Of a stretch of DNA of 32,899 bases, positions 13,224-18,645 are shown piece by piece. This stretch comes from Anaeromyxobacter terrae (GTDB lineage: Bacteria; Myxococcota; Myxococcia; Myxococcales; Anaeromyxobacteraceae): the NCBI RefSeq assembly GCF_022690685.1, contig NZ_JALCYY010000054.1, forward strand, positions 1 to 32,899. The letters run 5' to 3'. A program made the position numbers and the translations under genes. Positions within the stretch are counted from its first letter, which is position 1; each line of letters opens with the position of its first letter. The notes beneath the pieces are model-generated. The model did no database searches. It worked only from the letters and a program-made list of their open reading frames with translations, and was not told the DNA's origin.

Positions 13224-13257
13224 TTGACGGCGTGCGAACGTTCTAAATATTCTGAAC
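13224..13257 (+). promoter_or_regulatory. Promoter of the GbsR-type regulator with overlapping operator
   Basis: TTGACG (13224-13229) is the -35 and AATATT (13246-13251) or the overlapping TATTCT is the -10. A 21-bp site at 13237-13257, running AACGTTC...ATTCTGAAC, covers the -10. Its core is an imperfect inverted repeat, GTTC(n10)GAAC. The same site recurs before the NmrA-like gene. Only 5 bases separate the operator from the ATG, so the transcript would be almost leaderless. The arrangement suggests autorepression. Confidence 0.7.
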
Positions 13258-13262
13258 GCACG

Positions 13263-13790
13263 ATGCCGGCGACCACTCCCGAAACCGTGCAGCGCTTCGT
13301 CGAGGCCTGGGGCGCGATGGGCTCGCTCTGGGGCATCAACCGGTCGGTGGCGCGGGTGCACGCGCTCCTCATGGCGACCGAGGAGGCCCTCGCGCTGGAG
13401 GAGATCGCGGAGCGGCTCCAGATCTCGAAGGGCAACGCCTCGATGTCGCTGCGCGAGCTGCGGACGTTCGGGGTCGTCCGGCAGGTCGAGGTCCCGGGCG
13501 ATCGCCGGGACTTCTACGTCACCGAGCCGGACGTCTGGCTCATGTTCTTCCGCATCCTCAAGGAGCGAAAGCGGCGCGAGTTCGACCCGGCCCTCGAGGC
13601 GATCCACGCGCTCGTCGACGCGCCGGGTGCGACCGGCGCCGTTCGCGGGCGGCTCGAGCAGATGGCGGACCTGCTCACGACGATCGAGGGGGTCGTGAAC
13701 CGGTTCCTGCAGGACCCGCAGTCGTCCCGCTCGGCGCTCGCGTTCATCGCCGGCATGCCGTTCGGCCGAAAGCAGAACGGGAAGGGGTAG
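13263..13790 (+). CDS. GbsR/MarR-type transcriptional regulator
   Basis: This is a DNA-binding repressor of the GbsR group (COG1510, MarR-like winged helix). The N-terminus (residues ~10-40) has the family pattern FVEAWGAMGSLWGINRSVARVHALL. The winged helix follows, with LEEIAERLQISKGNASMSLREL as the helix-turn-helix and VPGDRRDFYVTE as the wing. A C-terminal helical region is likely for dimerisation. Length is 175 residues, normal for the family. The ATG at 13263 is chosen; the longer TTG start at 13224 is the -35 element itself. No Shine-Dalgarno is visible. The shared operator in its own promoter and in that of the next gene points to autoregulation and control of the NmrA-like gene. No ligand is known, and no choline or betaine genes are nearby. 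Confidence 0.9.
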   Translation: MPATTPETVQRFVEAWGAMGSLWGINRSVARVHALLMATEEALALEEIAERLQISKGNASMSLRELRTFGVVRQVEVPGDRRDFYVTEPDVWLMFFRILKERKRREFDPALEAIHALVDAPGATGAVRGRLEQMADLLTTIEGVVNRFLQDPQSSRSALAFIAGMPFGRKQNGKG

Positions 13791-13815
13791 CTGCGAGCAC
13801 CCGTCCCGCGGAGAC

Positions 13816-13850
13816 TTCATCACGCTCGAAACGTTCACAAGATTCTGAAC
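13816..13850 (+). promoter_or_regulatory. Second copy of the regulator operator, upstream of the NmrA-like gene
   Basis: The 21-bp site at 13830-13850 matches the one at 13237-13257 in 18 of 21 positions, starting AACGTTC and ending ATTCTGAAC. The aligned -10 would be AAGATT (13839-13844), with TTCATC (13816-13821) as a weak -35, 17 bp apart. A strong GGAGGAGG ribosome binding site follows at about 13863-13870. Confidence 0.7.
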
Positions 13851-13876
13851 AAACGAGCAACGCGGAGGAGGAAACC

Positions 13877-14791
13877 ATGAGCCGCCCGAACGTCCACGCC
13901 ATCACCGGAGCCTTCGGCTACAGCGGAAGGGAGATCGCGCGCCTCCTCCTCGCCCGCGGCGAGCGCGTGAGGACGCTCACCGGACATCCGGATCGGTCCG
14001 ATCCGTTCGGCGGCCGCGTCGAGGTGGCGCCCTTCCACTTCGACGATCCGGCGAGGATGCGCGACGCGCTCGCGGGGGTCCGTGTCCTCTACAACACCTA
14101 CTGGGTCCGCTTCGACCACGGCGCCTCGACGTTCGCGCGGGCCGTCGAGAACAGCCGCGCCCTGTTCCGAGCGGCGGCCGACGCGGGCGTCGAGCGGGTC
14201 GTCCACGTGTCGATCACGAACCCGGCGCCCGACTCGCCCTTGCCGTACTTCCGCGGAAAGGCCGAGGTCGAGCGGGCGCTCCGCGAGTCGGGGCTCTCCC
14301 ACGCGATCCTCCGTCCGGCGGTGTTCTTCGGCGGCCGGGACGTCCTCATCAACAACATCGCGTGGCTGCTGCGGCGGCTGCCGCTCTTCGGCGTGGCGTC
14401 CGGCGCGTACGGCATCCAGCCCGTGCACGTCGAGGACCTGGCCTGGCTCGCCGTGGAGCACGCCGATCGCGGCGGTGACGTCGTCGTGGACGCGGTCGGG
14501 CCCGAGGTGTTCGCGTTCGACGAGCTCGTGCGGCTCGTCCGCGCCGCGGTCCGCTCGCGCGCCCTGATCGTGCCGGTCCCCGCCTGGCTGCTCCTCGGCG
14601 CCGCTCGCGTCCTCGGCGCGCCGCTCGGCGACGTGGTGCTCACGAGGGACGAAGTCGAGGGGCTCAGGGCGAACCTCCTCGTCTCCGCCGGACGGCCCAC
14701 CGCGCGGACGCACTTCACCGAGTGGCTCGCCACGCACGCACACGAGCTCGGGATCGAGTGGGCCTCGGAGCTGGGCAGGCACTATCGGTGA
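13877..14791 (+). CDS. NmrA-like NAD(P)-binding atypical short-chain dehydrogenase
   Basis: This is a Rossmann-fold protein of the NmrA/atypical SDR group (COG0702). The N-terminus has AITGAFGYSGREIARLLL, the TGxxGxxG dinucleotide-binding loop with Ala and Tyr in variable positions. VERVVHVSITNP and AILRPAVFFG follow at the positions usual for the family. Length is 304 residues. The ATG at 13877 follows GGAGGAGG at good spacing. A canonical catalytic YxxxK is not obvious, which suggests a sensor or ubiquinone-related accessory role as for other NmrA-like proteins, but this is inference. It appears controlled by the adjacent GbsR-type regulator through the shared operator. The substrate is unknown. 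Confidence 0.9.
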   Translation: MSRPNVHAITGAFGYSGREIARLLLARGERVRTLTGHPDRSDPFGGRVEVAPFHFDDPARMRDALAGVRVLYNTYWVRFDHGASTFARAVENSRALFRAAADAGVERVVHVSITNPAPDSPLPYFRGKAEVERALRESGLSHAILRPAVFFGGRDVLINNIAWLLRRLPLFGVASGAYGIQPVHVEDLAWLAVEHADRGGDVVVDAVGPEVFAFDELVRLVRAAVRSRALIVPVPAWLLLGAARVLGAPLGDVVLTRDEVEGLRANLLVSAGRPTARTHFTEWLATHAHELGIEWASELGRHYR

Positions 14792-17124: not shown

Positions 17125-18645
17125 ATGCCCTCCGTCCGCCTCGAGCGGCTCTCGTTCGCGTACGCGGACTCCGTCCCCATCCTCTCCGACGTCGACCTCC
17201 TCCTGCCGTCAGGGTTCACCGCCCTCGTGGGCGAGAACGGCGCCGGCAAGTCCACGCTGCTCGCGCTCCTCGCCGGCGCGCTCTCGCCCGGCGAGGGGCG
17301 CGTGCGCCTCGAGGGCGCCACCGTCGCGCTCTGCCCGCAGGAGGTGCACCGCCCCGGCGACGAGCTCTTCGCGCTCGCCGGCCGTGAGGACGGCGAGGCT
17401 CGCCGGCTGCGCGCCTCGCTCGCGCTCGATCCCGGGGACCTCGCGCGCTGGGAGACGCTCTCGCCCGGCGAGCGCAAGCGCTGGCAGCTCGCCGGCGCCC
17501 TCGCGGCCGAGCCGGAGGTGCTCCTGCTGGACGAGCCGACGAACCACGCCGACGCGGACGCGCGCGCGCTCCTCGTCGCGGCGCTCCGGCGCTTTCGCGG
17601 CGTGGGCGTGGTCGTCTCGCACGATCGCGCCCTCCTGGAGGCGATCGCGCCGCGCACGCTCCGGCTCCACCGGGGCGAGGCGCGCCTGTGGCCGCTCCCT
17701 TACGGCGCGGCGCGCGCGGCGTGGGAGGCGGAGCTCCGCGCGGCGTGGGACCGGCGCGGCGCGGCCCAGGACGCGGCGCGGCGGGCGGCGCGCAAGCTCG
17801 ACGAGGCGCGCCGCGAGCGCGAGGCGGCGGAGCGCGCGATGAGCGGGCGGCGCCGCGACCCGAAGGACAGCGACGCGCGGACGCTCGGCGCGAAGACGCT
17901 GCGCGCTTGGGCGGAGGACAGGCTCGGCCGCGACGTGAACCGGCTCCGCGCGGCCGCGGAGCGCGCGGACGATGCCGTCGCGAACGCGCTTCCCGCCGCG
18001 GCCCTCGGCGGCGCGATCTCCCTCGGCTTCGAGCGAGCGCCGCGCCCGGTGCTGCTCTCGCTCGACGCGGACGTCGTGCGCGCCGGTGCCATGCCGGTGC
18101 TGCGCGACGTGCACGTCCGGCTCGGGCGCGAGGCGCGCGTACGCGTCGAGGGGCCGAACGGGGCGGGGAAGACGACGCTCGTCGAGGCGCTGCTCGGCGG
18201 CTCGACGCTCCCGCCCGAGAAGCTCCTCCACCTGCCGCAGGAGCTCCCCGCCGGCGCCGGCGCCCGGCTGCTGGAGGAGGTGCGGGCGCTCGCGCCGGAA
18301 ACGAAGGGGAGGGTGCTCTCGCTCGTCGCGGCGCTCGGGAGCGACCCCGGGCGGCTGCTCGCCTCGCGCGATCCGTCCCCGGGCGAGGCGCGCAAGCTCC
18401 TCCTCGCGCTCGGGCTCGGGCGCCACGCCTGGGCGCTCGTGCTCGACGAGCCGACGAACCACCTCGACCTGCCCACCGTGGAGCGGCTGGAGGCGGCGCT
18501 CGAGGCGTACCCGGGCGCGATCCTGCTCGTCACCCACGACGACGCGTTCGCGGCGCGCGTGCTCGGCGAGCGCGCCGATGCGCCGGGCGGTGACCCCCGG
18601 GCGGAGCGGTGGCGCATCGCGGAGGGACGGGTCGCGCCTGCGTAG
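17125..18645 (+). CDS. ABC-F family ATPase
   Basis: This protein has two ATPase cassettes and no membrane segment, as in the ABC-F group that acts on ribosomes (translation factors or antibiotic-resistance proteins). The first Walker A is GENGAGKS (36-43), with a signature LSPGE and Walker B LLLDEPTNHAD. The second Walker A is GPNGAGKT (about 344-351), the signature SPGE and Walker B LVLDEPTNHLD, each followed by the His switch (SHDR, THDD). The linker is a charged helix rich in Arg and Ala (about 190-270). At 506 residues it is shorter than Uup or EttA (about 555-635). The ATG at 17125 follows AGGAG. Whether it confers resistance or regulates translation cannot be told from sequence. Confidence 0.93.
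   Translation: MPSVRLERLSFAYADSVPILSDVDLLLPSGFTALVGENGAGKSTLLALLAGALSPGEGRVRLEGATVALCPQEVHRPGDELFALAGREDGEARRLRASLALDPGDLARWETLSPGERKRWQLAGALAAEPEVLLLDEPTNHADADARALLVAALRRFRGVGVVVSHDRALLEAIAPRTLRLHRGEARLWPLPYGAARAAWEAELRAAWDRRGAAQDAARRAARKLDEARREREAAERAMSGRRRDPKDSDARTLGAKTLRAWAEDRLGRDVNRLRAAAERADDAVANALPAAALGGAISLGFERAPRPVLLSLDADVVRAGAMPVLRDVHVRLGREARVRVEGPNGAGKTTLVEALLGGSTLPPEKLLHLPQELPAGAGARLLEEVRALAPETKGRVLSLVAALGSDPGRLLASRDPSPGEARKLLLALGLGRHAWALVLDEPTNHLDLPTVERLEAALEAYPGAILLVTHDDAFAARVLGERADAPGGDPRAERWRIAEGRVAPA

Follow-up and report, generated by a model that had tools for sequence, protein, structure and literature searches.

Several regulators of the GbsR type have been described in bacteria. 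Mj223 is the template used for GbsR in the GbsR literature (PMC6207618), and GbsR senses choline via an aromatic cage (PMC7396694). GbsR-like regulators adjoining cyd genes carry the name CydE, and CydE of Alishewanella sp. WH16-1, a GbsR-type repressor of cydAB, gave a DNase I footprint on TATTTCAGAAATTTCTGAAAGTTCA (PMC6096048). With these systems we compare a regulator gene and the nmrA-like gene behind it (referred to as nmrA) in the window, the whole stretch of 32,899 nucleotides analysed, which is part of a 5.65-Mb genome (G000, contig C93) whose closest named relatives belong to Anaeromyxobacter. The locus carries the following features.

13224..13229, + strand: -35 hexamer TTGACG of the regulator promoter (TTGAC, TTGAT or TTGCC at 17-18 spacing in all 8 loci)
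13240..13257, + strand: operator 1, GTTCTAAATATTCTGAAC, overlapping the -10 of the regulator promoter, kept in all 8 orthologous loci
13248..13253, + strand: -10 hexamer TATTCT inside operator 1 (promoter scan and ortholog alignment)
13263..13790, + strand: GbsR/CydE-like MarR-family regulator, 175 aa (profile, structure, fold and tree evidence)
13833..13850, + strand: operator 2, GTTCACAAGATTCTGAAC, before nmrA, kept in all 8 orthologous loci and in L037 and L039 as well
13866..13871, + strand: ribosome-binding site AGGAGG of nmrA (read from the sequence)
13877..14791, + strand: NmrA/NDUFA9-like atypical SDR, NAD(P)-binding, 304 aa (profile, alignment and fold matches)

A sequence-only reading of this DNA had pointed out two 21-bp sites, AACGTTCTAAATATTCTGAAC at 13237-13257 and AACGTTCACAAGATTCTGAAC at 13830-13850, and direct sequence comparison confirmed that they are identical at 18 of 21 positions. 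The conserved element is an 18-bp palindrome (13240-13257 and 13833-13850) with the consensus GTTCAGAATATTCTGAAC and the half-sites GTTCAGAA/TTCTGAAC; the leading AAC of the 21-bp sites is not kept in orthologs, and the window's own copies are slightly degenerate, with the changes in the left half. The GTTC(n10)GAAC symmetry noted in the same reading is indeed present in its exact form at both sites and nowhere else in the window. When one mismatch is allowed, 5 such sequences are found in the window against 8.7 expected from shuffled sequence, and since this looser form is no commoner than chance, symmetry alone proves nothing and was dropped as evidence. The sites stand above chance because they are kept in all orthologous loci and are nearly absent elsewhere in the genomes.

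The orthologous regulator-nmrA loci compared were 8 including the window, 7 being from other genomes, and several are close relatives, so that they do not represent 8 independent events. Conservation of both sites, a point on which the earlier reading could have failed, was observed throughout this set: every locus carries one site before the regulator and one before the nmrA-like gene, within diverged flanks. Anchored on the site, the mean pairwise identity among the 8 loci is 0.89 for operator 1 and 0.79 for operator 2, against 0.41 and 0.39 for the 45 bp upstream of the respective operators, and no other upstream 18-mer exceeds 0.48 on the regulator side or 0.45 on the nmrA side. The perfect palindrome GTTCAGAATATTCTGAAC is found before the regulator in 2 orthologs (L033 and L036). 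The spacing between the operators ranges from 589 to 612 bp among orthologs, a variation that led us to drop the idea of a DNA loop with fixed phase.

The sequence-only reading had also placed the sites on the -10 of each of two promoters, which holds for the regulator and is not supported for nmrA, the one point of that reading to fall short. The regulator promoter, TTGACG-18-TATTCT, is a good sigma-70 match with its -10 overlapped by operator 1, and the region contains a single promoter-like match, TTGACG followed by a -10 at spacing 16 or 18 (the one at 18 being TATTCT). The regulator ATG lies 7-10 nt after the -10 and 3-6 nt after the operator in the 8 orthologs (5 nt in the window), leaving no room for a ribosome-binding site, and none is found before it in any of them. 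From this close placement we infer that the regulator mRNA is probably leaderless, with transcription starting on the ATG itself or only a few bases from it. TTG at 13224 was rejected as a start codon, since the -35 hexamer begins with these three bases, and the conserved start of the orthologs is ATG 13263. The ribosome-binding site of nmrA is a good one. On the nmrA side, neither a promoter-like match in the scan, whose reach ends short of myxobacterial promoters of poor consensus, nor a conserved -35 or -10 in orthologs was found, leaving a separate nmrA promoter unproven. By comparison of the loci, both site conservation and the promoter geometry at the regulator are established.

Exclusivity of the site was examined by genome scans at a threshold of up to 3 mismatches to the core TTCAGAATATTCTGAA. 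In the window's genome, the two sites and one other place were detected, and seven further regulator-bearing genomes carry one or two core matches each, all at the locus except one in G003. Taken together, the 8 regulator-bearing genomes hold 1-3 core matches each, with 14 operator sites in total and 2 off-locus, and four related genomes without the regulator gave 0 core matches at the same threshold. The third match in the window's genome, C64:18655 (TTTAGAATCGTCTGAA), was set aside as chance after a matching third site was found in no related genome; the wider pattern GTTCN6TTCTGAAC with 2 mismatches gave 190 matches, mostly chance. The genome scan that had been proposed for finding more regulon members thus turned up no other conserved site, in agreement with the two-gene circuit first suggested. 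In close relatives the distribution of nmrA is the same as that of the regulator and the sites, except in G016, and none of four more distant nmrA homologs that have no regulator beside them (L116-L119) carries a similar site upstream. At the level of sequence, these scans establish the near-exclusivity of the sites and their linkage to the regulator. G016 has lost the regulator naturally: a short remnant of it (L112 1336-1440) stands beside an intact nmrA, and one half-site base of the remaining operator is changed. For L038, a regulator that belongs to the same clade, neither a clear site nor an adjoining nmrA is present; at L038 3435-6403 the regulator is followed by a radical SAM gene, with a UbiU-like U32 peptidase-family gene on the other strand.

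The motif extends beyond the close relatives. A perfect TTCAG-N6-CTGAA was found within 170 bp upstream in 30 of 41 more distant relatives, many of them closely related to one another, as compared with about 0 in shuffled upstream sequence. More distant regulators (L025, L026, L072, L074 and L077) have TTCAGTNNNNACTGAA-type palindromes upstream, and in L074 (Ktedonobacterales) the gene next to the regulator encodes a DrrA-like ABC transporter ATPase. One contig labelled Bacillus subtilis SK6B4 (L059) carries a regulator nearly identical to those of Pseudochrobactrum, and its assembly is probably contaminated or mislabelled. A literature search for forms of the core palindrome gave the CydE paper (PMC6096048) as the sole match.

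The assignment of the regulator to the GbsR type was upheld by three lines of evidence. In profile searches the protein matches MarR_2 (E 1.3e-7) and the CudC model at 54.9 bits; since the latter stays below the equivalog cut-off of 218 bits, identity with the choline regulator CudC was ruled out. It matches structure 1ku9 (Mj223) at E 2e-14, and 1ku9, 5jbr and 4nb5, its fold matches, are the closest solved structures of this MarR-fold protein; it shows the GbsR-type architecture of an N-terminal winged helix, related to Mj223, and C-terminal dimerisation helices. In a tree of 73 relatives, the regulator falls in an nmrA-linked group (support 82/69) that lies outside but is sister to the cyd-linked clade (100/100), the two being joined at 94/85. 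CydD adjoins the regulator in L045 and L063 of the cyd-linked clade and CydC is encoded near a third member, the other members being assigned from tree position, with neighbours not checked one by one. An operator of the form TTCAGAA-N2-TTCTGAA before its own gene, a mark of the CydE subfamily, is present here; no cyd genes stand next to the regulator, its neighbours being DUF1015 and NmrA-like genes.

The nmrA product matches PF13460 (1.8e-13) and PF05368 (3.2e-10) in profile searches, and has the Rossmann fold and glycine-rich nucleotide motif of an atypical SDR. The motif reads TGAFGYSG, with T10, G11, A12, F13 and G17 invariant in orthologs, and a YxxxK pair, Y124 and K128, the putative catalytic residues, is invariant in 10 orthologs. 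Both in sequence and in fold the best matches are complex I NDUFA9-like subunits (28% identity to 9g83 chain P); next come enzymes such as SwaQ2 and triphenylmethane reductase with NADP(H). Given its resemblance to complex I NDUFA9 subunits and to NADPH-dependent quinone or dye reductases, a role in reducing quinone-like compounds is a fair guess, but only a guess.

Altogether, we consider it likely that the regulator represses itself and, through the second operator, controls nmrA. The autorepression and neighbour control proposed earlier gain weight from operator conservation, co-occurrence with the regulator and a half-site identical to that of the CydE footprint. A dimeric GbsR/CydE-type winged-helix repressor would bind the palindrome TTCAGAA-N2-TTCTGAA, and since operator 1 covers the -10, the bound regulator would block RNA polymerase, leading to self-repression. 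Operator 2, located between the genes, would put nmrA under the same control, and an inducer would release both genes together; the nmrA product would be an atypical SDR that probably acts with NADP(H) on a quinone-like compound or another xenobiotic. What operator 2 does is uncertain, as nmrA has no recognisable promoter; it may act on an unrecognised internal promoter or stop read-through from the regulator promoter. The second route, in which the leaderless promoter drives both genes as one operon and site 2, when occupied by the regulator, is a roadblock, is a possibility we hold tentatively: no promoter-like match precedes nmrA, -10-like positions there are not conserved, and the genes lie on the same strand across an 86-nt gap with no terminator-like site between them, but a roadblock would be largely redundant if the first promoter is already repressed, site 2 lies just ahead of the ribosome-binding site as expected for an operator of nmrA's own promoter, and poor-consensus myxobacterial promoters would escape the scan. 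That the regulator represses itself yet activates nmrA might be read from the differences between the two sites in left-half conservation and promoter context, but it appears improbable, because the characterised GbsR, OpcR, OpuAR, CydE and CioR act as repressors (PMC6207618, PMC7396694, PMC6096048, PMC11837568). That the palindromes belong to another transcription factor, for which the GbsR-like paralog at G000:C1:100956 would be a candidate, is highly improbable, as genomes with the paralog only have no TTCAGAATATTCTGAA site, CydE, from the sister family, recognises identical half-sites, and the sites track the regulator gene across phyla.

This paralog (G000:C1:100956-101396, L089; also L092) is found in most of the family. 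Near it stands a menaquinone gene in which MqnA and MqnC are fused; in G010, the counterpart of the paralog is next to a gene for a UbiA/MqnP-like prenyltransferase. These neighbours and the cyd link suggest, as a lead only, a respiratory-quinone theme for the CydE-like GbsR branch. That the signal for the branch is the respiratory quinone pool, or else a poison resembling a quinone, is a speculation to which we give little credence; if true, the cytochrome bd assembly genes, the menaquinone (futalosine pathway) cluster by the Anaeromyxobacter paralog and the SDR would form one respiratory-quinone response, within which the SDR would reduce quinones with NADPH or serve complex I as an accessory factor. 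More directly, a branch of GbsR regulators that is largely uncharacterised now has an 18-bp operator open to testing, and the motif of the CydE footprint in the literature is seen to recur in other phyla. The regulator gene is a further, well-conserved candidate for a gene that is both leaderless and self-repressed, and an orphan NDUFA9-like enzyme gains an assigned regulator. Elsewhere in the window, 17125-18645 encodes an ABC-F protein that resembles the ribosomal protection-like ABC-F family (match to NF000355 below cut-off).

Set beside the known systems, the regulator and nmrA are most likely a genuine self-regulated pair of genes, though one of an ordinary and established kind. In Bacillus subtilis, GbsR and OpcR are dimeric repressors of the same family, and OpcR blocks polymerase access as proposed for the window regulator, whereas their operator is A/T-rich with half-sites 4 bp apart and serves compatible-solute genes (PMC7396694). 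CioR of Chromobacterium violaceum (PMC11837568) is likewise of the GbsR subfamily and a direct autorepressor of its own operon, but controls cytochrome bd. CydE, for which a second, unrelated footprint is described (PMC6096048), differs in that its genes stand beside cytochrome bd genes, the target here being an NmrA/NDUFA9-like SDR, and in the central bases of the site, mostly TA instead of AT. CydE nevertheless belongs to the same family as a sister clade, has a site before its own gene and represses the adjoining operon, as is proposed here for the neighbouring gene, and its footprint TATTTCAGAAATTTCTGAAAGTTCA contains both 7-bp half-sites of the window motif, TTCAGAA and TTCTGAA (PMC6096048).
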